64,000 nucleotides of DNA from Winogradskyella eximia (GTDB lineage Bacteria > Bacteroidota > Bacteroidia > Flavobacteriales > Flavobacteriaceae). The notes under the pieces were generated by a model, which was not told where the DNA came from, made no database searches, and saw nothing but the letters and a program-made list of their open reading frames with translations. Shown one piece after another: positions 8,045 to 48,255 of the stretch; within the stretch, counting starts at the first letter, position 1, and each line of letters starts with the position of its first letter. The stretch is taken from contig NZ_QRDV01000002.1 in the NCBI RefSeq assembly GCF_003386165.1, positions 1-64,000 of the forward strand. The letters are read 5' to 3'. The translations under genes and the position numbers were made by a program.

Positions 8045-8077
8045 GTTTTTACCATTTTAAATTGCTGTGATTAATTA

Positions 8078-8824: not shown

Positions 8825-8875
8825 TACTATATGTAGTATTTTTGTGGTTAAGATTTTAACTTAAGATTTAGGAGG
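8825..8875 (+). promoter_or_regulatory. Promoter, dyad and strong Shine-Dalgarno for the radical-SAM gene
   Basis: TATTTTTG at 8837-8844 fits the -7 consensus TAnnTTTG and overlaps a small dyad TACTA-TATG-TAGTA (8825-8838). A full AGGAGG (8870-8875) sits 7 bases before the TTG start at 8883. Strong Shine-Dalgarno sequences are uncommon in this phylum and here support the non-ATG start. Confidence 0.6.
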
Positions 8876-8882
8876 AAAATAT

Positions 8883-28900: not shown

Positions 28901-30379
28901 ATAATTAGTTGCATTATCAGTATCGGTCACAAATTCTAAATCGCCACTAGTATAGCTTACAGCTCCAGTTGAAATAAACTCTTCTGCATCATCTCCAGAA
29001 GCTATAATTGAATAAGTTTCGTTAGTTGTAGATAATTCATCAACTCCTAGACAATTACAGTTACCGTCTTCTTCGTCATTTACTGTGGTTGGATCATTAT
29101 CATCACAGGCAACACCTCTTGGTGGGCAATTAACATCTGGTGTATTAGATATTGTTACAACGGCACCTGTTGAAGGTGAAAAAACATTTAAGTTTGCTGG
29201 TAGTGTAAATGGATCTGTGTTAGAAACTGATCCAACCGAACTCGCATTACTTACGTCGATTGTTCTTAATTCTATTTTAAGGGCATCTACAAATACGAGC
29301 TTAAACTGGTTAAATGATCCAGAGTTTCTTGTCCATGTTTTAACGTCATTTGCTGCTCTTAATGGTGCTCCCCAACAGCCTTCGCCTGTGTAAACAGTAC
29401 CGTTAATTTGTTCTATAACAAAACCTTCGTCATTTCCAGAATAAGCTGAAGGTTTTACAGGCCAAGTTGTTTTAGCAGTATGAGAATCGCAATCAACGAC
29501 TAAACGGACACCTTCATCATAGAAAAGTTGAGCCCAAGCATCATATTGATTATTGTTTTCAGCTTTCCATGATACGTGTGGACGCATTGGTTTATGATAC
29601 TGAGCCATTTTCCATTTCAAGTTAGGAGAAGCTGTAGATAGGTCATTTTCTAACCATGTTTTTTGATCACCTAAAACTGAAATTTCGGAATTTAAGGTGT
29701 AAGCTTTTATTAAATCATTACCAAATGTTACAGAATAATAAGAATCAGCATTAGGTGTGTCAAATAATTTGTAAATAGTTTCAGAATCTGTTTCGTGATT
29801 TCCTCTAGCAGGTATAATTGGGAACATTCTTCCATCACTTGCTATAGTTAATTGCCAATCATCAAACCAATCTTGCCATTCCCCAGATCCATTAGTATCC
29901 GTCATGTCTCCTGCAAAGAATATACCATGCGGTTTTAATTTAGAAACTAAAAGATTGGCAGCTTGTCTAGGTGTTCTATTGTTTCTAGAGTCTCCACCTG
30001 CAATAAAAGATAAACGACTAAGATCGTTCGGTGCTGTTCTAAACCAAAAACGTTGACTCGTACTATTGCTATCATTTATAACAAAATAATAGTTGGTGTT
30101 TGGAGTTAAGCCAGTAAGTCTTACAAAGCGATTATCCATGCCTTTGAAAGATTCTGTTCTATCAACGGTTTTAGTATTAGTGTATAATGTATGGTCTGTA
30201 CCATGATCCATTGTATCATAATAAACAACTGGTGAAGTGCCTGATATCTGATTCCAACCAATGGTAATCGTAGTAGATGGATCATCCATTATCATAATAC
30301 GATATTTATCATTATTAGCAAAACCTAAAGAAATACTCAATAAGAGTAGTAGATAGGTTAAATGTAATTTATATGTCAT
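25973..30379 (-). CDS. Giant secreted purple-acid-phosphatase-like protein with T9SS type A sorting domain
   Basis: A 1,468-residue exported protein. After the signal peptide (about 1-21) comes a fibronectin-like purple-acid-phosphatase N-domain (PSTTITIGWNQISG), then a metallophosphoesterase domain (about 120-350) with GGDSRNN, FFAGDMTD, ARGNHET, AQYHKPMRP and VVDCDSHTAK. A beta domain (about 450-620) and several lectin- or adhesin-like regions follow. The last 75 residues are a type A T9SS sorting domain (GLSIYKKPNEKSI ... GIYIIKLISDTNEKRTQKLIIN), so it is moved across the outer membrane and attached to the surface or released. The probable role is phosphate release from organic phosphate. 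The final GHxH motif is altered to CDSH, so activity should be tested. Its start overlaps the upstream membrane gene (ATGA). Confidence 0.88.
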   Translation of the reverse strand: MTYKLHLTYLLLLLSISLGFANNDKYRIMIMDDPSTTITIGWNQISGTSPVVYYDTMDHGTDHTLYTNTKTVDRTESFKGMDNRFVRLTGLTPNTNYYFVINDSNSTSQRFWFRTAPNDLSRLSFIAGGDSRNNRTPRQAANLLVSKLKPHGIFFAGDMTDTNGSGEWQDWFDDWQLTIASDGRMFPIIPARGNHETDSETIYKLFDTPNADSYYSVTFGNDLIKAYTLNSEISVLGDQKTWLENDLSTASPNLKWKMAQYHKPMRPHVSWKAENNNQYDAWAQLFYDEGVRLVVDCDSHTAKTTWPVKPSAYSGNDEGFVIEQINGTVYTGEGCWGAPLRAANDVKTWTRNSGSFNQFKLVFVDALKIELRTIDVSNASSVGSVSNTDPFTLPANLNVFSPSTGAVVTISNTPDVNCPPRGVACDDNDPTTVNDEEDGNCNCLGVDELSTTNETYSIIASGDDAEEFISTGAVSYTSGDLEFVTDTDNATNYDQIIGLRFNNISIPKGATIHRAYIQFQADEVSSDVTNLTFHGELADDSNGFNSSSYNISSRSLTSNSEAWSNVEAWDYIGQNGYKQRSPYLQSIINEIITQPGWEVGNAVTFIVSGSGRRVAESRNGSVNNSPKLVVFYNANCPITNVTVGTQTICNDIDDTYSQDLIVEYVSPPASGSLMVNGQSFPIGTSPQTVTLTGLAADGLDVDISAHFTAEACDYTVERAFDAPSQCSLEGLPDNSPDDNSNLALLPEAILYGSSTNGRGVPGDILYDPVTDNYKTVTAYNEYGVSFGENLGKPTADEGFKWQVNWPNVKYMNYVTFGGSYSNQDQADSMWIISYRKDGVWTTLAQGQGGWIDDGIFEWGGPTFDPIEADALRVQVYSDGTNDLVSIHLRGRGGVANSNNDSATTTKATLIQYLSPGNSCGVTIPANSILYCNGSWINTDNPNDTTGTKNTIIADGTYTITADQDVEVNDLEILSGASVIVEEGASLTVNGNLVNNGDLILESISTKYSSLIVEGTSTGNVSYKRHINAYSNGATGNDLVSSPFSGQNFGDFASVNPNIYENPNNATQKLFGPFSEPTGSYQIYSTTTNAATTLDKGVGYRAARDAAEDGVSGTTITFTGNVETGSFTIPITESSGSYNGWNLIGNPYPSYMDFTTFFNLNKTQLDLGAYQAIYGFDGNATNGWTILNNLSTGQLIAPGQGFFVKVKSGGGTISFTPAMRVKGATDDFILGRSSNNGSTEGYINLQINNTILEAYSTAIYFNENATSGLDPGYDAAMFQGNVPEFSVYSNLVESNSESFMAIQALGSQTINNTIIALGVNALQGEEVTVSISESTLPNATKVYLEDRFTNTFTLLSNQNYTFTAPSDISGIGRFYLRFELETLGLIKEDLAGLSIYKKPNEKSIIIEGQLQTETSYELYDLNGRVLINNDLDSSTRINSIDVSQLSSGIYIIKLISDTNEKRTQKLIIN

Positions 30380-32691: not shown

Positions 32692-33675
32692 TTATCTATA
32701 ATAACTCTGACTCGTTCCTCTTGTACAAGCACAATTGCTTACACCTTGTAAAAAATCTATTCCTATAGTTACCATGTGTGTACCAGAATTATAGCCAGAT
32801 AAATCGTTTATGGTGAGTTGATAAGAATATGCAAAAAACCACTTGTTAAATGTAATTCCAGCCATCGGACCAACATTTAAAGGTTTAAAAAACTGATCAT
32901 TAAGAAAACGGTAAGATGCTCCAACAAAATAATAATCACCTTTTCTGTTAAACTTCCTGTACTTAAAATTTACGTCTGTGCTAGAACGTTTATCACTATC
33001 AAACATTTGAAAAAATAAAGATGGCTCAAATTCCACATCTTTATTTTGCTTACTTTTTATAACCAGACCTGTATATAATTGATAATTTAATAATTGAATT
33101 GGTTCTACTCCTTCATATTTATCAATATCTTTTTTCATGATGTTATTAGCATTCAAACTCAAATAGAATGCTTTCCATCTGTATAAAATACCAGCATCAA
33201 AGTTGTTATTTGAAAGACCTCTGTCGTTTGTAATCGCAGGATCTAATATTGGAATTTCATAAGTGGTATTAAAGTCTTCAATAGCTACTCTAAAGTTATT
33301 AATGTTATAAGATAATCCAAAAGATAGATATTGCTTAGATTTATAATCTAAAGTTAAGTGATGCGCAAACGAAAATTTAACCCCTTTTTGAATTGTATTT
33401 CCATTTCTATCATTGTAAGCTGATATTCCAACACCAGAACGATTTCCTATTCTAAAATCACCATAAACGGATTGATTATCAGGTGCGTTTTTTATCCCAA
33501 CCCATTGCGTTAATCCGTTGGCTCTAATTTTTAGATTATCTCCAATTCCTGCATAAGTAGGTGATATAACAAAATCATTATCTGCTAAGTATTGTGTAAA
33601 TACAGGTAAGTTTAATTCTTGTCCATAACTCTGTGCAAGGACCAAAAAAAGAATATATAGTGTGATTTTTTTCAT
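32692..33675 (-). CDS. PorP/SprF family type IX secretion protein
   Basis: A 327-residue outer-membrane barrel protein of usual family length. A signal peptide (to SYGQ) is followed by the typical LPVFTQYLADNDFVISPTYAGIGDNLKIRAN opening and repeated barrel strands. PorP/SprF proteins sit in the outer membrane and help export or anchor specific type B CTD cargo; SprF serves the gliding adhesin SprB in Flavobacterium johnsoniae. It is the last gene of the operon, 26 bases after the giant adhesin, which is probably its client. The C-terminus holds two extra cysteines (NCAC). Its stop is 18 bases from the convergent regulator gene. Confidence 0.92.
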   Translation of the reverse strand: MKKITLYILFLVLAQSYGQELNLPVFTQYLADNDFVISPTYAGIGDNLKIRANGLTQWVGIKNAPDNQSVYGDFRIGNRSGVGISAYNDRNGNTIQKGVKFSFAHHLTLDYKSKQYLSFGLSYNINNFRVAIEDFNTTYEIPILDPAITNDRGLSNNNFDAGILYRWKAFYLSLNANNIMKKDIDKYEGVEPIQLLNYQLYTGLVIKSKQNKDVEFEPSLFFQMFDSDKRSSTDVNFKYRKFNRKGDYYFVGASYRFLNDQFFKPLNVGPMAGITFNKWFFAYSYQLTINDLSGYNSGTHMVTIGIDFLQGVSNCACTRGTSQSYYR

Positions 33676-33701: not shown

Positions 33702-36700
33702 TTATCTGTATAGTGTAAAATGTCCAACAAATTCTTTATCATGTGACGAGTCATTTGTTTTAACAACAAACCAATAATCTCCCATCGGTAATTCTTTGCC
33801 ATTATATTTACCGTCCCAAACTTCACCAACATGATATTGGGCTACTTTTCGTCCGTAGCGATCAAAAATATCGTAGGTTAGGTTCGGATAATTTTCTGTA
33901 CAACCAGGAGACCAAGTATCGTAAGAACCATCTCCGTTTGGCGTAAACCAGTTTGGAATACAAATATCCTCAAACTCTAATTCTATTTGTGCTGTAGCAT
34001 AGCAACCAGAGCTATCAGTTACGGTTACAGTATACAGACCTGATTCAAAAATGATATAAGAATTTGTATCACCATAATCTTCGTCGTTCATTGTAAATTG
34101 ATATCCACCTTCACCACCTGAAGCCGTCGCTATAAATTCGTTAAGCTCTCCTTCTGTTAAGGTTAAGGTAATTGGATCAGTTGCTTCAATATCGAAGAAT
34201 TCTGTAGATTGAATACAGCCATTAGTATGTCTAACTTCTATAATATGATCTGTCCCTACAGGTACATTATAAAAGATGTTACTTTCTTGATAAGTTCCAC
34301 CATTTAATGAGTAATCTAATTGAGAAAGATCTTCAATAGAAGCATCAACTGTAACCGTAACCGCATTTCCTTGTGTATTATTTTCACAAATGTTTTCAAT
34401 TAAAATCTCTGGTAAAATGCTAACTGATTCTGGGAATGTAATATTCCACTCAGATTCGCAACCTTCAGCATCTCTAACAAACACAATATGGTCTCCACCA
34501 ACTAAATCTGTAAAATCAAATTCGGTTTGTGTAGCATTTCCTGTTGTATAGACTCCTTCGTAATCGTCTAAACTTACACTATATGGCAATGTTCCTCCAG
34601 AAATAGCGATACTAAATTCTCCATCAGCATTTCCTGTACAAACTTCAGGGAAGAAAGAATCTGCCACGATACTTAATATCACAGGATCTGGTTCAGAGAT
34701 TTCGAAGTTAAATGTTAAATAACATCCTAATTCATCTTGAACAATGATTTCGTAATTTCCTGGAGATAAATTTTCAAACGTATTTGTCTCAAAAAACTGA
34801 TTGAGTTGTGGTGAGATAGCATATCTAATAGTTCCAGTACCTCCCGTAGCTGTAATTTCAACCATTCCGTTATTATTCCCTGCACAACTTACATTGTTTA
34901 CAATAATAGTGGCATCAATCGGAGCATCTGGTTCTGTAATACTAATTGGTGCAGATGTGGCTTCACAATCTCCACTTTCTACATACACTACATAGTTTCC
35001 GGCAAAGAGTTCTGTGAAATATCCAGGTGTCGTTTGAGTCGCTGTTACAGGATTTCCTAAATTATCTTGTAACGTGTAAGTGTAATTACCTAAGCCACCT
35101 ATAGCAGTTGCTAAAATTGATCCGTTGTTGTCTCCAGCACAATTAATAGTTGGGTTAGAGGATTGTAAGGTTACCTCTAAAGTTGGTAATGGATCTACAG
35201 TAATTTCATTAGAAATATTGGTAACACAACCGTTAGCGTCTCTTACAAAATAAGAATAAGTACCATCTGAAACATTAAACGTTGTTGAGGTTGAGAAAGT
35301 TCCTAAAATTGGTGTAAATGAGGCATTTTCACTATAAGAATATATACCAGTACCACCTGTAGCACTTAGAGTTAATGTAGATTCTGTTAAACAAGTTTGT
35401 GTTGTTGTTCTTACTAGGCTCGCTTCAATAGGAGTTGGCTCAGTAATAACAATGTTAACAGAAGAAAACTCACAATCAAAACCATCCGTAATTCTTACAA
35501 AATAAGTACCAGGACCTAAGTTTTCAAATACATTAGAGGTTTGAGGACCAGAAACACTTGGTGTTGGTAGAAGAGTATTTAAAGTATACGTGTAATTTGT
35601 GCCTTGTCCACCAGTAACATTAGTAATAGTAATGCTTGCATCTTGATCTCCAAAACAAGATAAAACAGTTGTATTTGGAGTAAAGGTAGCATTGATAGGT
35701 GTTGGTGTTTCTAAAGTGATCGTTTCCGAAACGATACAACCTCCTGCATCCATAACGTTAACAGTATAGTCGCCAGCTGAAAGACCTGTAAATGATCCGT
35801 TAGAAGAATAGGCAACTGTAGCATCACCTGTTAATTCATATTGATAATCTCCCCAACCACCTGTTGCAACAGATGTAATTGTACCTTCATTGTCATTACA
35901 AGTTACGTTTGAAGTTTCCGAAACACTAAGTGTCATAGCTTCTAATGGTGATACAATAGTAACATTTGTGATTGCCGAACAGAATGGAATATCAGTTTCT
36001 GTAATTTCTACAGTAAATGTTCCTGCTTCCATACCAGTTACTGTTTCAGGATTAGTAGAGGTGTTAGCATTTACAATTCCTGTAACAGATGTTCCTGAGC
36101 TATTAAATACTTCATAAGTATACGCTCCAGAATAATTTTCAATATTGATATCAAATGATCCTGAGTTGTCACCAAAACAAGTAATTTCATTTGGAGTTAA
36201 TGTAAATACAGGAGATACAGCTTCAGAAACTGAAATTGAAACGTCTTCAGTACAAGAGGTTACTGTATCTGTGATAGTTATGGTATAACTTCCAGATGGT
36301 ACACCAGAAAAAACATTTCCTGTAATACTAATAGAAGCTGGGTTTGGAAGAATGCTGTAAGCATACGATCCAGATCCACCAGAACCTGTAATGGTAATTT
36401 CACCATCATCATTATTACAAGATGGTAATGCTGTAATTTCTGGAGTTAAAGCAATAGGAGCTACAACATTTAAAGAAACGGTGTTACCACAACCATTGAT
36501 ATCTTTTATAGCTACAGTATGTGTACCAGAATATAAGTTTGAAATTGAAAAAGGAAAGGTTTGAGTTTGAAACGCACCTCCATTAATACTCACACTGTAA
36601 GGTGGTATTCCAACCATATCTAGTGTCACGTCTATTTCAAATTCACCTTCTACAACCGTACATTGATTGTTTATAGTTGCTGAAATAGCAGGTGTTGGAT

Positions 36701-39700
36701 CCATGTCTAAAACTTGAACAGGACTAGTAACAATACAATTATAAGCATCAATAACATGAACATAATAACTTCCTGCATCCATATTAAATGTACTTGAAGT
36801 ATCCCAAGCAGTATCAGTAGCAAGAGGAGCAGAAGCAGAGGTTGTTATTTGATATTGATAAGGAGGTGTTCCGTTTGAACCTATAGCACTTATAACACCA
36901 GAATTGGCTTCACAATTTGCATTGTTATCTATTGAAACAGCTAATTCTAAAAGAAATGCAGATTCAGTAATATTAAATGGAACTGTTACAATACCACAAC
37001 CAGCATTAGAGCCAGAGGTTTCGCTAATAGAAACAAAATAGTTTCCAAAAGCTAATGGTCCTAAATCTGTTACAGTTATTGAACCATTTGCTGGCACAGT
37101 ACCAGAATTTGATATACCAGTTGAAGTTAAACTTAAAGAATCAAAAATTTCATAATTAACATCTACAGCATTAGCATAAATACTGTTAACTGTAAATGAT
37201 ACATTACCATCTGCACTACCAGTACAAGTAATGTTATTAGCACTAACCGCTGTTGCTGTTAATGTAGAACTTGTAGGAATTGGCACAGTTGCAGGCTCAT
37301 AATAACTACAGTTTGTAGATTGGTCATACACAATAAATGTATAAAGTACTCCAGGTATTAGACCAGTAAATGTAGCAGACTCACTTCCTAGAGAATCTTC
37401 TGCTAACCATGTACCTGCAGGATATACTGTACTTGGACCTTCATAAATACTAAAGAAAAATGGTCCAGCACTAGTTAAAGTTGAGCCTATACTTACTTCG
37501 GCTTCTCCACCTGTAGAACAATCAACTGTAGCAGTAATATCAATATTTAAATCTGTTGGAGGTGAAGCAACCAATACATCTTGAACTAATACAGAACAAC
37601 CATTTGCATCAACTACGTTAATTTGGTATAATCCAAAATCAACAACATCAAAGCTTACAGATGTTGAACCTATATTATTAAGTTCAGAATTTGAATACCC
37701 ATTTGTTCCTGTTACAAAATAGTTATAAGGTGATGTTCCTCCAACAACTGAGTTGATAATAACAGAACCTTGAGAAACTCCTCCAATATCACATGTAATA
37801 TCCACAGCGTCATAATCTACAATGATAGCATCTGGTTGGTTAATGATTACGGTTTCGGTTGCAGTACAAGATTTTGAATCTGTAACTGTAACAGTATATG
37901 TACCTGCTGGCAGACTAGATGTTTGTGTCCCAAAATCTGTTCCAGTAGTATCATTATTCACATTAATAACAAAAGGAGGTGTGCCTACTGAAGTATCAAT
38001 TGTAACCTCAATAGCTCCATTAGTATCTCCATTACACAAAATAGGTTGAGTTTGAACAACTAAACTCAAAGCAGGTAATGATAATGGGTTCACTGTAATT
38101 ATTGATGATTCTGCAGTACAACCGTTTGCATCTGTAATTTGAAGTTGGTATGTTCCTGCCGTTCCAGTTGAATAAGTGAATGGTGTTCCGGTTGCACCTA
38201 AAGACGTGAAAGCGCCTCCGTTAATTGATACCGCATGTGTATATGGTGCAGGACCAGTAATAGTTCCTGTAATTACCGCATCTGGTGAAGCTGTACAATC
38301 CAAGTCTTCCGTTAAAACAACAGCTAAAGTTGGAGTAGGTATAGGGTCAATGGTATAAGATTCACTATAAACACAATCATTTTCATCTTTTACTTGAAAT
38401 GTGTAAGTTCCAGGTTCTAAACCTGAAAAGTCAGTAGAGGTTTGATAAGTCGTTGTTGCCGAAGCAGGTGCTGTAATTTGATATTCTAATGTTCCTATAC
38501 CACCAGTTGTTCCAGTAATTGTAACTGTTGCTGCATTTGAAGGACAAGTTACAGGTGAATTATCAAACATTAAATCCGTTGGAGGATTTAACGCTTCAAC
38601 TGTTATTTGATTCATTGCAGAAGAACATCCGCTAGCATCTTTTACAATGACAGTATATGTTCCTGCTGATAAATTATTAAAACTGTTACTGTTCTGAAAA
38701 GTTACACCATCAATACTGTAAGAATATGGTGAACTTCCTCCGGTTACTCCTGTTACAGTTATAGTTCCATCTGAGATACAAGTATATGGTGCAGATAATG
38801 TCGCAGTTCCTACTATAGCAGCTGCTGAATTTATAGCAATCGTTTGTGGAGTTGTTTCACAAACATCAGTGCCAGAAGTGTATTGTAATACAACATCATA
38901 ATTTCCTACAGCTAATCCTGTAAATACATTTGAATTAACAAAAGTACCTCCTCCGTCAATACTATAAGCTATACTATTTCCATTAGCATTAGTTACATTA
39001 ACTGTTAATGCTCCAGAATTGTCAGCATCAGCACATGCAATATCTGTTACATCTACTGTGAAATCTGGCTGAGAAATGGCATCAACATCTATTGTTACTT
39101 CTGTACTACAGTTATTAGAATCGGTAACTAAAACAGTATAGAGTCCTGCAGAAGTGACTACAATTTGAGGTACAGACTGAAAATCAGTCGCGCCATTTAC
39201 GAAGTAATAGTAAGGTGGTGTTCCTCCAACCGGGTAAACTGTAAGCTCTCCATCGGTACAGTTTAGAGGACTTGTTAGAGCTATGGTTGCTGTTAATAAA
39301 GGTGGTTCAACAATTGTGATGTCTTCAGTAAACGTACAACCATTTTCAGATTCAATTGTGGCAGTATATGTTCCAGGATTTAAATTTTGAAACGTATAAT
39401 TATTGTCCATAATTGGACCAACACTATTTACCACAGTTGCTCCCTGAGATATTGAAAATAAATATTGAGGATCTACATCATTAGCCGATAAATGAATACT
39501 TCCTTTATCGTCATGACAAAGTGGTTGCGTTACAGTAGCAGAACCGGTAAACTCACGATCTCTAATTTGAACACTAGGAACTGTAAATACACAAGGATTG
39601 GTAGATATACCTACTTGTCTCACATAGATTGTATACGTACCAGCTGTATCCACAGAAAATACATTACTAGATTGAAAGTTTGTTCCATCTATACTGTATT

Positions 39701-41915
39701 CGTAACCTGATGGCACATTATTCACAGTAATACTCCCATTTGTGTTACAGATAATATCGGTAGCTTCAACTGTTGGGTTTAATACGTTTTCATAAACATT
39801 AAAGTAAAACTGAACAAAACAACCACCTGGATAATTAATTGTTATACGGTATTGTCCGGCTGTATCTACTAAAAATCCAGATTCACTTGGAATAGCATTC
39901 CATACACAATCTGTATTTTCATTGGCACAATCTGAATCTGAAACAGCATCACAACTTGTTTCATCAAGTACTTCCCAAATTATAGAAGTAGAATCTGAAA
40001 TATTAGTTTGTATGACTCTTGAATCATCTGCACCACACAAAAATATATTTGGTAATAATTTACCATCATTAGGACACACAACCACTTCATCTGCGTATGG
40101 TATCACAGGGTTTGTAGTGTTAGCACCAAAAAGCTGCACATTAAATTGTTGTACAATAGATTGACAGGGTGCAATTGCTGTGTTGTATGAATAATATGTT
40201 CCTGTTTCAGTAACGGTTATTGTTTGTGAGTTTCCAATAACAGGAGTTCCAGTTGGGCTAGTAGACCATGCATAAGAATCATAACCATCAGCAGCTGTTA
40301 ATACTAAACTATCTCCACAAAGAATTTCACTGTATTCAAAAGAACAGTCAAGGTCTGCCAAAAAGTTTGTGGCCTGAGGTGTAATTAAACAACCTGTATT
40401 GGTACTTAAACTTGGGTCATCCGTGATGGTAAAATCTGGATTGATAGTTCCTTGATACGTAGCAAAAGCTTGATTGTTTATAATATTAGAACACGCATCT
40501 TCTAGCTGACCACAATCGTCAACCACTTGTACTTCAATACGTATTTCGTATACAGGATCATTCTCTTCAACCAAAGAATCATCAATACTTAAAACTAGTT
40601 CTCTTGTTGTTGGATTATAACTAACAACTGTTACACCAGTTGGTAAGACTAAGTCTGTTGGATGATTGTATATAATATTGATAGGAAGAACATCTCTAAT
40701 CGTAAAGTTAGTAGCATCGTCATTTCCTGTATTTTGAAAACCAATCACATAATTTAAAGAGGATCCTAAGCCTACAAGTTCTCCTCCAATATCATTTCCT
40801 AAATCGTCTTCAACAATTTTTGTTAGTACAATATTAGGAGCAATAATCTCAATAGCAAAAGCACTAAAATAGTAATAGTAGATATCTAAGTTACTACCTA
40901 AACTAATATTAGCTGAGGTTGCATTATTAGCAATAAGTGAATTCCCTGGATTTGGAATATTAATGATACCAGCATCAAAACCTAAAGTATTAGAACTGTT
41001 TGGTGTTCTGTTGGTAAATAATTCTGAGGTGTTTGTTACAGGATTAATATCTGAAACAGAACTATTAAAAAAGTTATTACCAGGACGTATTGTTGTACCA
41101 GCATTATTTGTTACACTAATTGTACTTCCATTAAGTCTTAAATAATCACCAGAATAACCTCTATCACCTTCAATTGTACTAAAAGCAAATTTTGCACGTA
41201 CAGGACCTGTTGGTATAGTGTTAAAGCCACTTACAGGAAAAGTCTCATTAATAGAACTTGTAATTTTTGTAAACCCATCAAAAGAAGTAATGTACTTACT
41301 TGGCAAAAGTGGATCTTCATAAACTACAAATAAAGACCAACCAGCTGAAAGACCTTCTGAATTTGGTTTTGGACCTACTAAAGTTGAAATATTAGCAACA
41401 GAATATGTGCCTTCCGGATCTGGTAAAGCGGTAAGCATATCTGTTACATCATGATAATAGGCATATGTATTTGATTGATTATTGTTAGTAGCATTTTGAT
41501 AGTAGATCTCGGTTCCTGTTATATCTTCATAGGCACCTCCTGGTACTTTAAATTTGATATCAGAAATTGGCTCGTCTCCATCAACTACAGCACTCCAATA
41601 TAAACCAGCATAAACGATAACATAACAGCTATCGTCACTTGGTACATCTAAGTCTGCACTACTGGAGTTAAATGTACTAGAGTCGCCATCTATATCTACA
41701 TAAACTGCGGCATTTACTCCATCATTGGTAGAATTTCCATTGTATGGGTTAGAAACATGTAATCCCACATTACTGTTTCCTATTAGAAGGATGTCTCCTT
41801 TTATGGCTTGATCGTATCTTGGCGAAAATGGCACAAGGTTCTGAGCAAACATTTGCTGTCCGATTATTAGGAATAGGACAATTTGGGCTATTCTAGAAAA
41901 AGTAGGTTTTTTCAT
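33702..41915 (-). CDS. Giant SprB-repeat surface adhesin with T9SS type B sorting domain
   Basis: A 2,737-residue exported protein. After the signal peptide (to MFAQ) comes an N-terminal region of about 350 residues, then a DUF11-like domain (APNIVLTKIVEDDLGNDIG) and roughly twenty SprB-like Ig repeats of 70-110 residues. Most repeats begin near a TC..DNGS-type motif (for example ITCFGDNSGSFDI, VSCAGNNNGMVEI, LSCFGDQDASITI) and end in GTYTVTVTD-like strands. The last 90 residues are a type B gliding-associated CTD (CIPNWFTPNGDGSYDTW ... YWFVVKTNDS). It resembles the mobile adhesin SprB, so gliding, adhesion or polymer capture is likely; ligand unknown. It is flanked by two PorP/SprF-type genes on the same strand. 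Confidence 0.92.
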   Translation of the reverse strand: MKKPTFSRIAQIVLFLIIGQQMFAQNLVPFSPRYDQAIKGDILLIGNSNVGLHVSNPYNGNSTNDGVNAAVYVDIDGDSSTFNSSSADLDVPSDDSCYVIVYAGLYWSAVVDGDEPISDIKFKVPGGAYEDITGTEIYYQNATNNNQSNTYAYYHDVTDMLTALPDPEGTYSVANISTLVGPKPNSEGLSAGWSLFVVYEDPLLPSKYITSFDGFTKITSSINETFPVSGFNTIPTGPVRAKFAFSTIEGDRGYSGDYLRLNGSTISVTNNAGTTIRPGNNFFNSSVSDINPVTNTSELFTNRTPNSSNTLGFDAGIINIPNPGNSLIANNATSANISLGSNLDIYYYYFSAFAIEIIAPNIVLTKIVEDDLGNDIGGELVGLGSSLNYVIGFQNTGNDDATNFTIRDVLPINIIYNHPTDLVLPTGVTVVSYNPTTRELVLSIDDSLVEENDPVYEIRIEVQVVDDCGQLEDACSNIINNQAFATYQGTINPDFTITDDPSLSTNTGCLITPQATNFLADLDCSFEYSEILCGDSLVLTAADGYDSYAWSTSPTGTPVIGNSQTITVTETGTYYSYNTAIAPCQSIVQQFNVQLFGANTTNPVIPYADEVVVCPNDGKLLPNIFLCGADDSRVIQTNISDSTSIIWEVLDETSCDAVSDSDCANENTDCVWNAIPSESGFLVDTAGQYRITINYPGGCFVQFYFNVYENVLNPTVEATDIICNTNGSITVNNVPSGYEYSIDGTNFQSSNVFSVDTAGTYTIYVRQVGISTNPCVFTVPSVQIRDREFTGSATVTQPLCHDDKGSIHLSANDVDPQYLFSISQGATVVNSVGPIMDNNYTFQNLNPGTYTATIESENGCTFTEDITIVEPPLLTATIALTSPLNCTDGELTVYPVGGTPPYYYFVNGATDFQSVPQIVVTSAGLYTVLVTDSNNCSTEVTIDVDAISQPDFTVDVTDIACADADNSGALTVNVTNANGNSIAYSIDGGGTFVNSNVFTGLAVGNYDVVLQYTSGTDVCETTPQTIAINSAAAIVGTATLSAPYTCISDGTITVTGVTGGSSPYSYSIDGVTFQNSNSFNNLSAGTYTVIVKDASGCSSAMNQITVEALNPPTDLMFDNSPVTCPSNAATVTITGTTGGIGTLEYQITAPASATTTYQTSTDFSGLEPGTYTFQVKDENDCVYSESYTIDPIPTPTLAVVLTEDLDCTASPDAVITGTITGPAPYTHAVSINGGAFTSLGATGTPFTYSTGTAGTYQLQITDANGCTAESSIITVNPLSLPALSLVVQTQPILCNGDTNGAIEVTIDTSVGTPPFVINVNNDTTGTDFGTQTSSLPAGTYTVTVTDSKSCTATETVIINQPDAIIVDYDAVDITCDIGGVSQGSVIINSVVGGTSPYNYFVTGTNGYSNSELNNIGSTSVSFDVVDFGLYQINVVDANGCSVLVQDVLVASPPTDLNIDITATVDCSTGGEAEVSIGSTLTSAGPFFFSIYEGPSTVYPAGTWLAEDSLGSESATFTGLIPGVLYTFIVYDQSTNCSYYEPATVPIPTSSTLTATAVSANNITCTGSADGNVSFTVNSIYANAVDVNYEIFDSLSLTSTGISNSGTVPANGSITVTDLGPLAFGNYFVSISETSGSNAGCGIVTVPFNITESAFLLELAVSIDNNANCEANSGVISAIGSNGTPPYQYQITTSASAPLATDTAWDTSSTFNMDAGSYYVHVIDAYNCIVTSPVQVLDMDPTPAISATINNQCTVVEGEFEIDVTLDMVGIPPYSVSINGGAFQTQTFPFSISNLYSGTHTVAIKDINGCGNTVSLNVVAPIALTPEITALPSCNNDDGEITITGSGGSGSYAYSILPNPASISITGNVFSGVPSGSYTITITDTVTSCTEDVSISVSEAVSPVFTLTPNEITCFGDNSGSFDINIENYSGAYTYEVFNSSGTSVTGIVNANTSTNPETVTGMEAGTFTVEITETDIPFCSAITNVTIVSPLEAMTLSVSETSNVTCNDNEGTITSVATGGWGDYQYELTGDATVAYSSNGSFTGLSAGDYTVNVMDAGGCIVSETITLETPTPINATFTPNTTVLSCFGDQDASITITNVTGGQGTNYTYTLNTLLPTPSVSGPQTSNVFENLGPGTYFVRITDGFDCEFSSVNIVITEPTPIEASLVRTTTQTCLTESTLTLSATGGTGIYSYSENASFTPILGTFSTSTTFNVSDGTYSYFVRDANGCVTNISNEITVDPLPTLEVTLQSSNPTINCAGDNNGSILATAIGGLGNYTYTLQDNLGNPVTATQTTPGYFTELFAGNYVVYVESGDCEATSAPISITEPDAPIDATIIVNNVSCAGNNNGMVEITATGGTGTIRYAISPQLNQFFETNTFENLSPGNYEIIVQDELGCYLTFNFEISEPDPVILSIVADSFFPEVCTGNADGEFSIAISGGTLPYSVSLDDYEGVYTTGNATQTEFDFTDLVGGDHIVFVRDAEGCESEWNITFPESVSILPEILIENICENNTQGNAVTVTVDASIEDLSQLDYSLNGGTYQESNIFYNVPVGTDHIIEVRHTNGCIQSTEFFDIEATDPITLTLTEGELNEFIATASGGEGGYQFTMNDEDYGDTNSYIIFESGLYTVTVTDSSGCYATAQIELEFEDICIPNWFTPNGDGSYDTWSPGCTENYPNLTYDIFDRYGRKVAQYHVGEVWDGKYNGKELPMGDYWFVVKTNDSSHDKEFVGHFTLYR

Positions 41916-41985: not shown

Positions 41986-44670
41986 TTAATTTTCAATTTT
42001 TACTATTGACATTTTTCCATTGTATGGTCTATTTCCTTTAGATTCTAAGGCTTTATTAGCATTTCCGATATCCTCGAATTTATCATAGAATATATAATAT
42101 TTACTTGTTGCAACATCGTGGAAGAAATCAACATCCGTTCTGCCAGAGGCAACCACATTAGTTAAAAATTCATTTCTTCTTTTTGTATCACTATGCACTG
42201 CAATGATTAGGTAATAACCGCTATCAACATTATCTATATTTTTTAAAATTTTAATGTTATTTCCTAAAGGTTCCCCAAAGTCAAAATCGGTTTCTTTTAA
42301 AGGTTCATCGCTTAATACTGTAGTTTGCTTTATATTATTAAGCATGGCTCTGTCTTGACTATATCTATCTTCTTCATTATTAAAAGCAGCACGTTTAATA
42401 CGTCTTCTTTTTTCAACTTCCGTTGCTATTCTAATAGCATCAAGCTTTGTGTTTAATTGTGCATTTACTTCATTAGCTTTTAATTGTTCGGCTTTTAATC
42501 GTTTAATTTCCTTTTTATAAAATAATGCAACTTCATCTAATCCGTAGGTACTGTTTGCAATACGATCTTCATAAAGTTTATTTAAATCATCAATTTTTTC
42601 GCTTCTTGATTTTATAATGTTTTCTAAATCAACCTTAATTGCGTTAAGTGCATTGTTTTCTGCAGTAACACTTTTAAATGGTTTTGGTTGTACTGTAATA
42701 CCTTGATCGCTTAAATCATTTTCTTCTTTTAAATCTTTTAGATCTTGATCCTTAATGGCAACAATATCATCGAATTGTTTTAGTAATTCGTTTTGTACAG
42801 CTTTAGAGTCTTCAGTTGAGTTTGCAATAGTTTGCATAGACTTAGCTAACTCATCCGTAGGGTTTGAAATAATATCATCGTTGTTATTTTCCTCTGCTAA
42901 TAGTTTTGCTTGTGCTTCAGCTTTAGCTTTTTGTTCTGCTAATAATTTTGCTTGTGCATCAGCTTCAGCTTTTTGTTCTGCTAATAGTTTCGCTTGTGCA
43001 TCAGCTTCTGCTTTGGCTTTTTGTTCTGCTAATAATTTTGCTTGTGCATCAGCTTCAGCTTTTTGTTCTGCTAATAGTTTCGCTTGTGCATCAGCTTCTG
43101 CTTTGGCTTTTTGTTCTGCTAATAATTTTGCTTGTGCATCAGCTTCAGCTTTTTGTTCTGCTAATAGTTTCGCTTGTGCATCAGCTTCTGCTTTGGCCTT
43201 TTGTTCTGCTAATAATTTTGCTTGTGCATCAGCTTCGGCTTTGGCCTTTTGTTCTGCTAATAGTTTTGCTTGTGCATCAGCTTCAGTTTTTTGTTCTGCT
43301 AATAGTTTTGCTTGTGCATCAGCTTCAGCTTTGGCTTTTTGTTCTGCTAATAGTTTTGCTTGTGCATCAGCTTCTGCTTTAGCTTTTTGCTCGGCTAATA
43401 GTTTTGCTCTTGTTTCTGCTCTTTCAGCCGCTTTTTTATCTGCTTCAATTTTATCAAGCTCAGCCTGTACTTCAGCTAATTCTTTTGCTTGTTGTTCTTC
43501 AATTAACTTAGTTTGAGCTTCATTATCTTGTGCAGTCTTTTTCTGTTCTGCTAATGCTTTAGCTTGAGACTCAGTTTCTGTTTGTAATTTTGCATTTTGC
43601 TCAGTTAATGTGTTAGCTTGTGTATTAGTTTTACGTTTAGATGTATTAGAGGTTTTATTATTTGCCACTCTTGATTTAGACGTTTTTGAAACGCGACGTC
43701 TTTTGTTTCCACTAGAAAGAATACTACTTACCTCGTCTTCTCGGCTATAATCATAATAATTATTATTTATGAATCTGTAAGCTAATGTGATTTCATGTGA
43801 AGATCCAAAATTGTTTAAGTCTCCAAAGGCTTTTTCATAATTATACTCTAGAGCAATTTGCTTTGTGATGTTAATACCTACACCAGCTGAAGCTCCATAA
43901 AGTGTGTTGTAACCTGCTTGTGCCCAAATACCCTTAGGTACTGTAACCATAGCAACACCAGAAATGATGGTTTCATCTTTCTGAAAATCTGATCGTAATA
44001 AAGCCGTAAATTTACTATTGTCAAAAAATCCTCTGCTACTCATGTACCCTGTGTACATAAAATGAGCTTGAATGCTTTGTTGTGGATTATCTTCAACTAA
44101 GAGAGAAGATTCAAAATTATATAAAGCTAAATTTTTAAATGACAATCCGAAATCTAAAAATTCTGTTCCGTAGTTAATGCTAGGATTAATAGATAGTAAG
44201 AAATTTTCTGGAACATTTTGTAAGGATGGATCTTCAAAATTTGTAACAACATTACCTGTATTTACACCACTTTTATAAGCACCAATATTGATACCAAAAG
44301 TTAGGTTACTATCTTGACCTAATCTTGCATTGTATGCAAAATTCAAAATACCACCAAAGGTGGTAAGTACTCCATAATTTTGTTGAAACAATCCTAATCC
44401 TGCACCAATATTTTCTCCAAAACGACCAGAGTAACTTGCCAAATAGGTGAGTGGTGCGTTATCAAAAGACACCCATTCTCTTTTGTTATAGATGCTTACA
44501 TATTTTGTTTGTTCTCTTACAAAACTGAATGTTGGGTTTAAAGTATATTTATTAAAGGTTAGAGAATTACGAGTTGGTATTGCAAGCGAAACCACTCCGT
44601 CATCTTCTTGAGAGTAGAATGTCTGTGTAAAACAGATACATAATATAAAAAGTAAAAAACGTGCTTTCAT
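41986..44670 (-). CDS. PorP/SprF protein fused to a TolA-like helical repeat and a SPOR-like end
   Basis: An 894-residue chimera; ordinary PorP/SprF proteins are near 300. Residues 1-20 are the signal peptide, and 25-305 are the PorP/SprF barrel (NSLTFNKYTLNPTFSFVREQ). A basic linker follows (about 320-350, KRRRVSKTSKSR), then a long helix rich in Ala, Lys, Gln and Glu (350-600). It contains about twelve AKLLAE units, with the repeat AKAEADAQAKLLAEQK, as in TolA domain II. A second coiled-coil stretch (605-780) and a C-terminal domain (about 813-894, SGYYLIIAVHSDTKRRNEFL ... YYIFYDKFEDIGNANKAL) that looks SPOR-like complete it. I infer an outer-membrane barrel with a periplasm-spanning arm that could reach peptidoglycan or the gliding motor. 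It starts one base after the type B CTD gene. Confidence 0.85.
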   Translation of the reverse strand: MKARFLLFILCICFTQTFYSQEDDGVVSLAIPTRNSLTFNKYTLNPTFSFVREQTKYVSIYNKREWVSFDNAPLTYLASYSGRFGENIGAGLGLFQQNYGVLTTFGGILNFAYNARLGQDSNLTFGINIGAYKSGVNTGNVVTNFEDPSLQNVPENFLLSINPSINYGTEFLDFGLSFKNLALYNFESSLLVEDNPQQSIQAHFMYTGYMSSRGFFDNSKFTALLRSDFQKDETIISGVAMVTVPKGIWAQAGYNTLYGASAGVGINITKQIALEYNYEKAFGDLNNFGSSHEITLAYRFINNNYYDYSREDEVSSILSSGNKRRRVSKTSKSRVANNKTSNTSKRKTNTQANTLTEQNAKLQTETESQAKALAEQKKTAQDNEAQTKLIEEQQAKELAEVQAELDKIEADKKAAERAETRAKLLAEQKAKAEADAQAKLLAEQKAKAEADAQAKLLAEQKTEADAQAKLLAEQKAKAEADAQAKLLAEQKAKAEADAQAKLLAEQKAEADAQAKLLAEQKAKAEADAQAKLLAEQKAEADAQAKLLAEQKAKAEADAQAKLLAEQKAEADAQAKLLAEQKAKAEAQAKLLAEENNNDDIISNPTDELAKSMQTIANSTEDSKAVQNELLKQFDDIVAIKDQDLKDLKEENDLSDQGITVQPKPFKSVTAENNALNAIKVDLENIIKSRSEKIDDLNKLYEDRIANSTYGLDEVALFYKKEIKRLKAEQLKANEVNAQLNTKLDAIRIATEVEKRRRIKRAAFNNEEDRYSQDRAMLNNIKQTTVLSDEPLKETDFDFGEPLGNNIKILKNIDNVDSGYYLIIAVHSDTKRRNEFLTNVVASGRTDVDFFHDVATSKYYIFYDKFEDIGNANKALESKGNRPYNGKMSIVKIEN
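42931..43236. repeat. 90-bp tandem repeat inside the SprF-fusion gene
   Basis: Three tandem 90-bp units, 42931-43020, 43021-43110 and 43111-43200. The first two are identical and the third differs by one base (C for T at 43198), followed by a partial copy to 43236. Each unit encodes 30 residues made of a 16- and a 14-residue sub-repeat, so copy number can change without a frameshift. Near identity suggests recent expansion. Confidence 0.93.
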
Positions 44671-44671
44671 A

Positions 44672-46135
44672 TTATTTTACTACGGTTATTGAACCTTTTT
44701 TAATTTTATTATCTTCTGTGGTTATGATGTAATAATACACCTGATTTATGCTGGTTAAGTTGAGATCGGTTTCTGGCCAATTGTTTTGATAATCATTAGT
44801 CTTTAATACTACTTCACCACGATTAGTCATAATAATCACTTCAGTATTTGTGCCACTTACATAAGCTGGTGGAATAATCCATGTATCATTAATTAGATCT
44901 CCATTAGGACTAATAAGGTTCGGTATTTTTTCTACATCAGGAAAAAGATCTAATGCTTCTTCTACGGTAAACAAATATTCTATTGAAGCTTCGCAACCAG
45001 TAGTTTCTGAGATGATGACACTATAGTCACCAAATTCTGTCGCTTCAAACGAAGATTCAGTTGCACCTGAAATTATAGTATTGTTTAAATACCAATTATA
45101 ATTTGGGTTTTGAGCTGTTGAGGTTACATTAACAAATAATGATTCACCTGACAAAATCTCATTATATTCTGGCACATCAATTGAACTTTCAAATAACTCG
45201 CTTACTAATTCTATACTACCAGAAGCAGAACAATCTCCTAAATCTACTTGTACTGAAAAAGTTGCTGATTCATTAGTTTGATACATTTGACTTGTAGCAT
45301 CTGGAATAATGTTTCCGTTTTTAAACCATTGGTAGCTATTACCTCCTATAGTACTTAAAGTGGTATAACCTTGTTCAGGACAAAATGGATTACCTAAGCT
45401 TGAGGCTATAGTAGCATTGGCTTCACCAGAAATGGCTTCACTGATAGTAACACGATTAGAGAATGAATCTGAAGTACAACTTCCGTAATTGGTTTTTACA
45501 AAATAAGTACCATTTGTGTTTACAGATAACGTTGGTCCATCTGCTACATATGCTGAGGTTGTTGGACTTGTTTCTTTATACCACTTATATGTAAGGTTAG
45601 GATATTGTAATGGAGAATCATTAGTTCCGTTGCCAGGATTATCTATAGTTAATAAGTAGCTACCACCTGTACAAAAGGCACCAGTAGAAACTAAATTATT
45701 AATAGTAAATGGTGAATCCTGAATTTTATAATAAGCAGCAAATGCTACCGACTTAGAACTTGTTGCTATAGGAGCACTACTTTTAATTCGAATTTTATAA
45801 TTTTCTCCAGCTGTTGTGTTTGGTATTGAGAATTCTAATGTTGCTGGTGAAACTGTAACTGATCCTGCTGCTGATGTATATATTGTAGTTGCATTAGTAA
45901 AATCACCATCCGCATCAGACATTTCAATGCTAAACTGGTTAGAAGAATCTAAAGCAGATTCTGGTGAAAAAATAAACGTAGTAGTATAAGTGTTAAATGA
46001 TGCGCTTGCACAAGCCTGACTAAATCCTAAATTTGGCGTACCAATAACTATTTGCGCATTGGCACGTTCTGACATGGAAATGGCAACAAGGCATACTGCA
46101 AATATTATTTGTGATAGGTAGGTAGGTTTAAGCAT
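44672..46135 (-). CDS. Secreted Ig-like protein with T9SS type B sorting domain
   Basis: A 487-residue protein with an N-terminal signal (to ERANAQ). Beta domains follow, including two or three Ig-like modules marked by Trp/Cys (LTYKWYKETSP, NSYQWFKNGNIIP, NYNWYLNNTIISG). The type B CTD lies at the end (IPNLISPNGDLINDTWIIP ... YYYIITTEDNKIKKGSITVVK). Family members are common in Flavobacteriaceae just upstream of PorP/SprF genes. It starts the tightly packed part of the adhesin operon, with a one-base gap to the fusion gene, so it is likely to be exported with the help of, or to bind, that protein. Confidence 0.87.
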   Translation of the reverse strand: MLKPTYLSQIIFAVCLVAISMSERANAQIVIGTPNLGFSQACASASFNTYTTTFIFSPESALDSSNQFSIEMSDADGDFTNATTIYTSAAGSVTVSPATLEFSIPNTTAGENYKIRIKSSAPIATSSKSVAFAAYYKIQDSPFTINNLVSTGAFCTGGSYLLTIDNPGNGTNDSPLQYPNLTYKWYKETSPTTSAYVADGPTLSVNTNGTYFVKTNYGSCTSDSFSNRVTISEAISGEANATIASSLGNPFCPEQGYTTLSTIGGNSYQWFKNGNIIPDATSQMYQTNESATFSVQVDLGDCSASGSIELVSELFESSIDVPEYNEILSGESLFVNVTSTAQNPNYNWYLNNTIISGATESSFEATEFGDYSVIISETTGCEASIEYLFTVEEALDLFPDVEKIPNLISPNGDLINDTWIIPPAYVSGTNTEVIIMTNRGEVVLKTNDYQNNWPETDLNLTSINQVYYYIITTEDNKIKKGSITVVK

Positions 46136-46215: not shown

Positions 46216-47532
46216 CTAATCATCATCATCGTCATATAAATCATTAGAAGCAATTATTTTGTTAATTCTTAATCTAAAATCTGGATATTTACTATTATTA
46301 GAGTCGATAAAAGTTTCTGAGTCTGGACCTTTTGAGTACACATTGTCAAAAGCTCTGCTGCCATACCAACTTTCTAAGTCATCATTATTAGAATAGTCTT
46401 TTCTGTAAATATTACCTTTACAGTTATTAAAATATAATCTTGTAAATTTTATCTTTTGTAAATTTTCACTGTTTATATCAATACGTCCATCAAAGATTAC
46501 AGCAGGTTTAAATCCAGAAATTACACTTTTATTAATTGTGAACTTTACATCTGGTCCTATGTAAATCGCTTCTTGTACCAAACCAACATTAATATCTGAT
46601 TTTAAATCTTTACTAACATTAACAAGAGTAAGGTTCTCTGCATTAACATATGTTTCCTTTTTAGAAGTATCCGCTTTTTCTTTTATGTCATAAGATTTAA
46701 TTGACATACAACGTGATCCGTCTGGACTAGAAATATAAGGTGATCTAATTGCTAATGAATTAATAATGTGACATTGTGCTCCATAATTAAATTCATAATC
46801 ATTTTTATTAGATCTATAAGATACTGTTTGAATTAATTCAACTTCACCACCCAAAACATTAAATGAGTTTCCTTGGCAGTAACTCACCATTACGTTGTTT
46901 ACGTTAGTTTGAAGTCCTATACCAGCAAGAGTAAGTCCGCTGAAGTTTCCAAATTCTTTTGTGTTTTTACCAGCATACTCAATTCTTACATACTTTAAAG
47001 TACCAGAATTTCCGTTAGAGTTATCTCCACCATAACTAATACTTTCTGTTGACGATGGGTTTAATCCGTAATTAAGTGAAGCGACTTTGCCAAAAGTATT
47101 GATAGGTGCATCTCCTAAAATAAAAAGGCCTCCCCAATCTCCTGGTTTTTTATCAGTTCTACTTGAAGTAAAAATAATTGGATCTGTTGGTTTTCCTTCA
47201 GCAAATATTTTAGATCCATTACTGATTGTTAATGATCCTTTAGTATTAAAGTCACCAAGAATTACTGTTCCTGCTTCTATAGTTAGTGTTGTACTATCAG
47301 TAACATAAACATCTCCTAGAAGAAGATAAGTGTTCCTTTTGGTTAAAGTAGTGTTTTCTGTTATGTTACCTGTTAAGATTTGTGTTGGCTCTTCGTAGTT
47401 TTCTTTATTAGGCTGAAAATCCGTCCATGAGTCTAGCCAATTATTGTAGCCAGTAATGCCTTTTTCTTGTTGGGCATTTATGTTGCTAATCACTAAAAAA
47501 AAGAGCAGTGCGGTTAGAGTAAAATTTTTCAT
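46216..47532 (-). CDS. Secreted right-handed beta-helix-like surface protein
   Basis: A 438-residue exported protein (signal to NINA, then QQEKG). The core has the turn-rich pattern of a family frequent in Bacteroidota surface proteins: TYLLLGDVYVTDSTTLTIEA, GTVILGDFNTKGSLTI, GDWGGLFILGDAPINTFG and LKYVRIEYAGK, which suggests a right-handed beta-helix. Unlike many relatives, I see no T9SS sorting domain; it ends in five aspartates. It lies 80 bases upstream of the type B CTD gene on the same strand, behind a good TAnnTTTG promoter, and probably opens the adhesin transcription unit. Confidence 0.75.
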   Translation of the reverse strand: MKNFTLTALLFFLVISNINAQQEKGITGYNNWLDSWTDFQPNKENYEEPTQILTGNITENTTLTKRNTYLLLGDVYVTDSTTLTIEAGTVILGDFNTKGSLTISNGSKIFAEGKPTDPIIFTSSRTDKKPGDWGGLFILGDAPINTFGKVASLNYGLNPSSTESISYGGDNSNGNSGTLKYVRIEYAGKNTKEFGNFSGLTLAGIGLQTNVNNVMVSYCQGNSFNVLGGEVELIQTVSYRSNKNDYEFNYGAQCHIINSLAIRSPYISSPDGSRCMSIKSYDIKEKADTSKKETYVNAENLTLVNVSKDLKSDINVGLVQEAIYIGPDVKFTINKSVISGFKPAVIFDGRIDINSENLQKIKFTRLYFNNCKGNIYRKDYSNNDDLESWYGSRAFDNVYSKGPDSETFIDSNNSKYPDFRLRINKIIASNDLYDDDDD

Positions 47533-47802: not shown

Positions 47803-48255
47803 CTAATCTTTTTTAAAGTCGTCATAGGTATGTAATGCTTTAAGAGTTGATTCGTAAAATAAAATAGCTGCTATTAAATCTTTAGTATCAGAATAAGGCA
47901 GAATTGATTTTTGAAACTCTATTGTACTATCAAAATAGGATGTAGAAGCATCAATATTATCTTCTAAAGCCTTTATATTATCTTTTGTCTCAGGTATACC
48001 TAAAGATTCCATAGTTACTCCAGGCTTTGTTGCAAATGCAATATTTGGAAGAATATTTACAATCACTTCAATTCGTTCTATATATAAAACTAATAAGTCT
48101 CCCTTCGACATCTTTTTTAAGTCTTCACGACTATGATATTTTGAGATGTTTACTTTGCCACTAATAATACTTTGAGATTCTTTCTTTTTTTGAGCAAAAC
48201 CCATGCTTATCATTAGGAAAAAAAAGGCACAAAATAAGGTAGATTTGGTATTCAT
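47803..48255 (-). CDS. Small exported hypothetical protein
   Basis: A 150-residue protein with a signal peptide (to MGFA, then QKKKES). The mature part is helical (MSKGDLLVLYIERIEVIVNILPNIAF ... DLIAAILFYESTLKALHTYDDF). No family is recognised. It has its own promoter (TTG, 19 bases, TAGATTTG at 48286-48315, minus) and a strong terminator. It lies just upstream of the T9SS adhesin locus on the same strand but is transcriptionally separate. Confidence 0.75.
   Translation of the reverse strand: MNTKSTLFCAFFFLMISMGFAQKKKESQSIISGKVNISKYHSREDLKKMSKGDLLVLYIERIEVIVNILPNIAFATKPGVTMESLGIPETKDNIKALEDNIDASTSYFDSTIEFQKSILPYSDTKDLIAAILFYESTLKALHTYDDFKKD

Follow-up and report, generated by a model that had tools for sequence, protein, structure and literature searches.

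Background

Type B proteins of the type IX secretion system (T9SS) have dedicated carriers of the PorP/SprF kind, mostly encoded next door, and some of these proteins move and some are static, according to the passages on them in a recent report (PMC12618676). SprF is described, in the part of PMC12635249 that deals with it, as bound to the moving gliding track by a disulfide from its periplasmic Cys-X-Cys tail to GldK. PorE was proposed as a static anchor, for example for Fjoh_3952 (PMC12618676, relevant passage), and PorE-type anchoring to the wall has been published for PorP of Porphyromonas gingivalis (PMC9143113, relevant passage). SprD, encoded in Flavobacterium johnsoniae in the gene order sprC-sprD-sprB-sprF (PMC5879114, passage on this operon), is reported there to be required for gliding (PMC9389320, PMC11885536, passages on SprD); a review states, in the corresponding passage, that it is not known what SprC and SprD do (PMC9389320), and the main text of PMC12618676 names neither protein. 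Here we describe a sprD gene (41986-44670, reverse strand) in a 64,000-nucleotide stretch of Winogradskyella eximia DNA, hereafter the window (positions 1 to 64,000 of contig NZ_QRDV01000002.1, assembly GCF_003386165.1). Its product joins a PorP/SprF barrel to a long helical arm of variable length, a conserved helical block and a predicted SPOR fold, and it has no cysteine after the barrel. These data suggest, with a probability that we put at about 0.58, that SprD is the dedicated carrier of SprC and that its tail couples SprC, without a covalent bond, to the wall and/or the track.

Identity of the gene

The gene starts with ATG and encodes 894 residues, and its assignment draws on the open reading frame (ORF), on Pfam and NCBIfam matches, and on orthology to F. 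johnsoniae sprD. We compared 80 loci, the best 80 of 217 relatives, chiefly from Winogradskyella, Psychroserpens and related Flavobacteriaceae. Their common operon encodes, in order, proteins of 150, 438 and 487 residues, SprD, a SprB-type adhesin and a 327-residue PorP protein. A SprC-type gene lies directly upstream of sprD in all 71 loci in which the upstream neighbour is visible, with a gap of 1 nt in 64 of them, and sprF was observed in 68 of the 80, most of the remaining loci ending before it. A SprB-type gene follows sprD in 80 of 80 loci; an initial annotation of the window had proposed to check this tie to SprB-repeat genes.

The F. johnsoniae counterpart was located with a primer given for the last 33 bp of sprD (PMC9870892, primer entry). 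The primer, whose frame reads GKMAIVK, matched exactly one of 249 genomes of the genus inferred to be Flavobacterium; its pattern, with 1 mismatch allowed, had no match in 397 family genomes. In the matched genome, the operon encodes proteins of 150, 432, 483 (SprC), 1588 (SprD), 6497 (SprB) and 356 (SprF) residues, and because of the exact primer match and of the SprB length, 6497 residues being what we take to be the length of SprB in F. johnsoniae, this genome was taken as F. johnsoniae. Its 1588-residue protein aligns with the window protein at E 2.5e-161. Judged by operon order and sequence, the 894-residue protein is an orthologue of the gliding protein SprD, and the initial annotation, which had presented it as the best candidate for an undescribed mechanism, had thus come upon a known gliding gene. 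Among the papers searched, none joins SprD, SPOR, gliding motility and SprB; some of this may already stand in the founding paper (Rhodes et al. 2011). Literature searched for SPOR domains with type IX secretion turned up only a type 2 system, as far as the retrieved text shows, and a search for SprD with TolA and gliding turned up only PMC9389320, with the SprD passage cited above.

Domain organization of SprD

The initial annotation had proposed a barrel, a repeat-containing arm, a second helical part and a SPOR-like end in one protein, and all of these parts were confirmed in the single 894-residue ORF. A signal peptide, judged by eye, covers residues 1-21 (44608-44670) and holds the only two cysteines of the protein, at 11 and 13. 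The outer-membrane β-barrel follows (residues 22-301; 43768-44607), supported by matches to PF11751 PorP_SprF (residues 33-298, 157.1 bits, curated cut-off 22.3) and TIGR03519 (residues 2-300, 171.3 bits, curated cut-off 90.55) and by modelled strands between residues 55 and 301. Residues 302-601 (42868-43767) form the variable arm, an Ala/Lys/Glu/Gln helix; residues 602-804 (42259-42867) form a helical block of near-fixed length; and residues 805-894 (41989-42258) form the domain with the predicted SPOR fold, delimited by the model and by VIA-align, all on the reverse strand. A full-length model, with a mean predicted local distance difference test (pLDDT) score of 68.7, gave the barrel 14 strands. 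It drew the arm as helical, with low confidence in the repeat region (block means about 40-54, residues 421-560), and the helices of the conserved block were mostly confident. With 14 predicted strands, both ends of the barrel lie on one side of the membrane, and the tail of SprF is described as periplasmic (PMC12635249); the arm is accordingly read as periplasmic and not as extracellular, the latter being a case that the initial annotation had named as speaking against it.

Within the arm, tandem repeats are evident in the protein (residues ~416-598, units of 14/16 residues) and in the DNA (42893-43408, reverse strand; units of 48/90/138 bases by Tandem Repeats Finder, TRF). Two forward-strand ORFs inside sprD, 42755-43516 and 42948-43382, were taken as shadows of the repeat and not as genes. 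Lengths were compared in 69 intact proteins, namely that of the window and those of 68 of the 80 loci, the other 12 being left out as cut by a contig end (nine) or as split ORFs (three: L063, L078 and L093). The arm ranges from 181 to 401 residues in this set, and it has 1001 residues in F. johnsoniae and about 51 in one relative (L040, 645 residues in all). The other parts have a barrel region of median 300 residues (257-340), a helical block of 203 (201-204) and a SPOR domain of 90 (89-91). From these sequences, the arm is a spacer whose length varies freely, built in the window from DNA tandem repeats, and the block and SPOR domain are the conserved parts. In the three split cases, the sprD ORF is broken in or near the repeat arm, either by a frameshift in the repeat or by an assembly error, and in the nine others the locus ends at a contig edge within the gene. 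A look by eye at a few genomes gave no lead on a relation between arm length and SprB length.

If straight, and with 0.15 nm per residue, the arm would be 27-60 nm long in the 69 proteins and 150 nm long in F. johnsoniae. A periplasm measures about 20-40 nm across, and long arms must therefore run along the membrane or fold back. The TolA-like arm of the initial annotation holds as to composition, which resembles TolA domain II; homology to TolA was rejected, as the TIGR02794 match (30.0 bits) is under the cut-off of 59.45 and limited to the TolA helical part, over the repeat, with no match beyond domain II and no inner-membrane helix after the barrel.

The predicted SPOR-fold tip

An AlphaFold2 model of SprD residues 790-894, built with 57 sequences, had a mean pLDDT of 93.9 and showed the β-α-β-β-α-β order of SPOR domains. 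VIA-align placed the tip near DamX (Z 6.2), RlpA (6.0 and 5.8), DedD (5.7) and CwlC (4.8). A Z score under 8 can by itself reflect a common arrangement, and we relied on these four SPOR proteins standing clear of the rows below them (Z 3.4 and lower); the top row was 6ozd, a Burkholderia exported protein, at Z 7.5. A profile of the SPOR end had no match to PDB sequences at E 10, and a broader SPOR profile found CwlC at 5.3e-5. The C-terminal region of SprD also aligns with PorP proteins of another family (G055, 2.2e-8; G042, 8.9e-6), and those PorP ends match Pfam SPOR over the cut-off in L057 (2.6e-9) and L058 (1.1e-8); among the relatives, a Pfam SPOR match over the cut-off was found in L049, L050, L054, L057 and L058. 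Residues 805-894 are thus predicted to have a SPOR fold, in agreement with the SPOR-like C-terminus of the initial annotation.

The residues of RlpA reported to bind glycan are Q270 (denuded glycan), R302, R309 and R311 (PMC6895207, relevant passage). The peptidoglycan link that the initial annotation had drawn is plausible in that a SPOR fold may contact the cell wall, and it is weakened in that the glycan-binding Gln of RlpA is not kept. This Gln is lost too in SPOR domains of HU-CCDC81 proteins that do match Pfam. On the strand face that bears the Gln position, with facing inferred from the alternation in RlpA, Tyr820, Ala824 and His826 of SprD are invariant in 57 of 57 sequences, which fits a conserved ligand of other chemistry; the opposite face is equally conserved (mean 0.89 vs 0.86; all positions 0.78). 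In HU-CCDC81 proteins, the same SPOR variant (36-42% identical) comes after a SPOR domain of the canonical type. Such relatives in wall-binding contexts are in favour of the wall as ligand of the predicted tip. In two loci of a Flavobacterium-type genus (L155 1428-3419, forward strand; L156 3098-5041, reverse strand), four LysM domains and a coiled region precede a C-terminal SPOR variant of the SprD type; the LysM domains were assigned by Pfam and the variant by profile match, Pfam SPOR having no match there. These proteins are possibly cousins of the SprD tail without a barrel.

SprC as the likely cargo

The window sprC (44672-46135, reverse strand) ends 1 nt upstream of sprD and encodes 487 residues with an Ig-like domain and a type-B-like T9SS C-terminal signal. 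This signal matches CHU_C at 45.9 bits, over the cut-off of 27, and TIGR04131 at 30.1 bits, under the cut-off of 35; among the SprC proteins compared, matches at E <= 0.001 were found in 25 of 25 for CHU_C and in 24 of 25 for TIGR04131. On this sequence evidence, SprD adjoins a gene with a type B signal, as a type B carrier does, and SprC is its likely cargo. SprC was stated to move on the gliding track, with a thesis as the source (PMC12635249, passage on SprC).

On the other side of sprD, the 2,737-residue SprB-type adhesin (33702-41915, reverse strand), whose adjacency had been noted in the initial annotation, is real: PF13573 SprB matches in 10 stretches, and a type B C-terminal signal matches TIGR04131 at 86.9 bits. 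It was rejected as the cargo of SprD, since it has a carrier of its own downstream. That carrier, by orthology, is SprF (32692-33675, reverse strand; 327 residues; PF11751 220.8 bits), which is 65% identical to F. johnsoniae SprF and bears the track-linking motif Cys-Ala-Cys in its tail (residues 315-317; 32725-32733, reverse strand).

Periplasmic links of PorP/SprF carriers

A cysteine after the barrel is present in none of the 69 SprD proteins, whereas the Cys-X-Cys motif is present in 68 of the 68 whole SprF proteins of the 80 loci, 57 loci being in both sets; the cysteines of F. johnsoniae SprD are only at 12 and 16. A Pfam scan of the window operon found no OmpA-type/PorE gene beside sprD. 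We then sorted the carriers of two genomes by three periplasmic links, namely a cysteine-pair tail, a PorE neighbour and a fused SPOR arm, with Cys-X-X-Cys (two carriers) counted together with Cys-X-Cys (four). Seven carriers over the cut-off in the window genome comprise three followed by a PorE-like gene, three with a cysteine-pair tail (CAC, CNC and CRSC) and SprD; an eighth, weak PorP match is PorV and was left out. All three PorE-like genes have OmpA and β-propeller matches over the cut-off, and two have a TPR match under it. The 11 carriers of F. johnsoniae comprise six followed by a PorE-like gene, three with a cysteine-pair tail (CPC, CNC and CFGC), SprD, and one (L192) with none of the links. 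Exactly one link was therefore found in 17 of 18 carriers, and a SPOR match was found in no carrier but SprD in either genome. Our F. johnsoniae counts differ slightly from the printed ones, with six PorE operons vs five (PMC12618676, relevant passage) and 11 PorP-like proteins including SprD vs 10 (PMC9143113, relevant passage). Upstream of the L192 carrier lies a large ORF whose end, by eye, resembles a type IX signal.

In another family, the proteins L148 4533-6254 and L149 4643-6445, encoded directly after a type B gene, combine a PorP/SprF barrel with thrombospondin-3 repeats and OmpA. From their domains, they appear to be one-piece PorP-PorE proteins and a parallel to SprD, one that favours the wall as the target of the SprD tip.

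Distribution of PorP-SPOR proteins

Within the genus, 34 of the 37 genomes, that of the window included, contain the C-terminal 300 residues of SprD; the three without them are 83-85% complete. Of 149 genomes drawn across the family, 50, again with its own included, have a match at E <= 2.3e-38, and 16 more have a weak one. This occurrence indicates that the SprD architecture is not due to chance. The genes read in eight chosen genomes of the 16 all encode a PorP protein that carries between one and three SPOR-like domains, and every one of them follows a SprC-like gene, whose product is 27-30% identical to the window SprC; in seven of the eight, the stretch read also holds a SprB-type gene. 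In four loci, the 8-15 kb read hold a PorP-SPOR gene but lack a SprB-type gene; the PorP-SPOR gene follows a SprC-like gene in L052, L057 and L058 and a TIGR04131 gene in L150. Since PorP-SPOR proteins occur also where the stretch read has no SprB-type gene, the SprC-like protein and the PorP-SPOR protein are probably the unit kept longest. L050 encodes at 6509-9214 (reverse strand) a 901-residue protein with a PorP/SprF barrel and then three SPOR-like domains, and in L052 three PorP-SPOR-like genes follow one another.

In a draw of 118 genomes from the phylum, PorP and SPOR occur in one gene in at least nine, the window's own included: in seven, both lie in a single open frame, in G186 they occupy two frames close together, and G378 was recognised by Pfam. 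The search for this architecture in other Bacteroidota, which the initial annotation had suggested, found further cases, and its remark that PorP/SprF proteins normally have about 300 residues needs correction in that longer ones are not unique, PorP-SPOR and PorP-OmpA fusions both occurring in other Bacteroidota.

Other genes of the window

Two genes at the head of the operon, encoding 438 residues (46216-47532, reverse strand; 54% identical in F. johnsoniae) and 150 residues (47803-48255, reverse strand; 48% identical in F. johnsoniae), stand at the same positions in every locus that extends to them (69 of 69 and 67 of 67, respectively) and in F. johnsoniae. Pfam gave no match to either protein at E 0.1, and both appear to be so far unlisted genes of the gliding operon. 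For two Winogradskyella genomes, the set of gliding homologues was reported to be complete (PMC7440613, relevant passage). We found gldJ in the window's own genome; as a marker of gliding it was rejected, because 148 of 149 genomes match it, 143 of them over the cut-off, and it does not discriminate. The window also encodes a 1468-residue protein of the purple acid phosphatase type that carries the T9SS sorting domain Por_Secre_tail (25973-30379, reverse strand).

Proposed role of SprD and alternatives

We propose that SprC is exported by the type IX system and that the SprD barrel would take the C-terminal signal of SprC and keep SprC on the cell surface, in the way that SprF serves SprB. In the periplasm, the barrel would continue at its C-terminus as the variable helical spacer, the 203-residue helical block and the SPOR-fold tip, with long arms lying along the membrane and not across the periplasm. 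This tail may replace, non-covalently, either the cysteine tail that forms a disulfide to GldK or the separate PorE that binds peptidoglycan, so that a surface protein would be coupled to the machinery beneath the outer membrane. Given the reported movement of SprC along the track, the hold of SprD would be reversible, sliding or track-directed, and not a fixed wall bolt.

Several observations weigh against this proposal. A peptidoglycan anchor for the tip fits badly with a moving SprC. Foldseek alone gave no PDB match to the tip at E <= 0.001, with CwlC ranked first, and Pfam SPOR (PF05036) had no match to SprD of the window at E 0.1 or of F. johnsoniae at E 0.01; for lack of a Pfam match over the cut-off, we speak of a SPOR fold and not of a member of Pfam SPOR. 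By profile alignment to CwlC, the equivalents in SprD of RlpA Q270 and F274 are Ile822 and His826, and R309/R311, placed by eye with the help of FtsN/RlpA motifs, seem to fall on Tyr859/Phe861, by which the Arg patch, too, would be lost. As for the cargo, the CHU_C-type signal of F. johnsoniae SprC scores 21.3, under the Pfam cut-off of 27, and TIGR04131 had no match to it at E 0.01. The three-link sorting was devised after the sequences had been seen, and the F. johnsoniae carrier without a link (L192 3641-4555, forward strand) has a shortened C-terminus.

SprD may instead be a static wall anchor, that is, a one-piece PorP-PorE whose SPOR tip on peptidoglycan would confine the SprC complex, together with some of the gliding apparatus, to one place within reach of the arm. 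The predicted SPOR fold and the existence of PorP-OmpA fusions agree with this, as do the anchoring by PorE published for PorP (PMC9143113) and that proposed for Fjoh_3952 (PMC12618676), in the passages referred to above; the reported movement of SprC (PMC12635249, same passage) and the unconserved glycan-binding Gln of RlpA argue against it, and we consider it unlikely. SprD was also considered as an assembly factor that aids the folding, export or stability of the giant SprB in the periplasm, with the arm as a scaffold and the SPOR fold as a protein-binding module. The operon shared with a SprB-type gene in every locus compared is in favour of this idea, but SprB has its own carrier SprF, and the four PorP-SPOR cases that follow a SprC-like or type-B gene have no SprB-type gene in the stretch read, which makes such a role quite improbable. 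TolA is fixed in the inner membrane. That the arm spans to the inner membrane and relays motor force to the outer membrane, akin to the inner-membrane motor link of the initial annotation, can be dismissed as very improbable despite its domain II-like composition and weak TIGR02794 match, because no hydrophobic segment follows the barrel (Kyte-Doolittle means over 19 residues reach at most 1.02 in the 69 sequences), only the TolA helical part is matched, and SprD, held in the outer membrane, has the opposite polarity.

Returning to SprD as carrier of SprC, one may ask whether the type B carriers of the T9SS fall into three mechanical classes: those that ride the track by a disulfide, static ones anchored by PorE and, as the third, SprD. 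A built-in flat arm of tens to 150 nm would then have its SPOR tip and block grip wall and/or track non-covalently, and SprC-SprD would be a sliding bearing that registers the moving track to peptidoglycan, an extension that we regard as doubtful. A three-way sorting of carriers is a sequence rule that may predict which surface proteins move and which are static; SprB, published as moving, and Fjoh_3952, published as static, agree with it. While sprD was already known as a gliding gene, its predicted SPOR tip suggests how the gliding machine may connect to the cell wall, and the domain map, with a tip fold and a likely cargo, renders the role of SprD directly testable.

Comparison with known systems

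SprD shares with TolA domain II a long Ala/Lys/Glu-rich helix, and it differs in the missing inner-membrane helix after the barrel and in matching TolA models only under the cut-off. With the SPOR domains of DamX, DedD, RlpA and CwlC it shares the predicted fold of residues 805-894, FtsN not being among the listed matches; it differs from SPOR domains, FtsN included, in a sequence under Pfam detection and in the absence of the RlpA-type Gln, and its tip sits on an outer-membrane barrel and not in a division protein. Like SprF, SprD has a PorP/SprF barrel and is encoded directly downstream of its presumed cargo gene, but SprF has a short tail with the Cys-X-Cys that bonds GldK (PMC12635249, passage on SprF), whereas the tail of SprD is long and cysteine-free. 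The PorP + PorE pairs of P. gingivalis and of F. johnsoniae operons likewise combine a type B carrier with a periplasmic wall-binding module, which is there a lipoprotein of its own whose end is of the OmpA type (PMC9143113, passage on PorE) and is a fused SPOR fold in SprD. The closest counterpart is SprD of F. johnsoniae, which agrees in operon order, domains and C-terminal end (GKMAIVKVEN there, GKMSIVKIEN in the window) and is 48% identical over window residues 4-586 (barrel and arm) and 47% over 343-894 (arm and tail); it differs in an arm of 1001 residues vs about 300 in the window, next to a SprB of 6497 vs 2737 residues.

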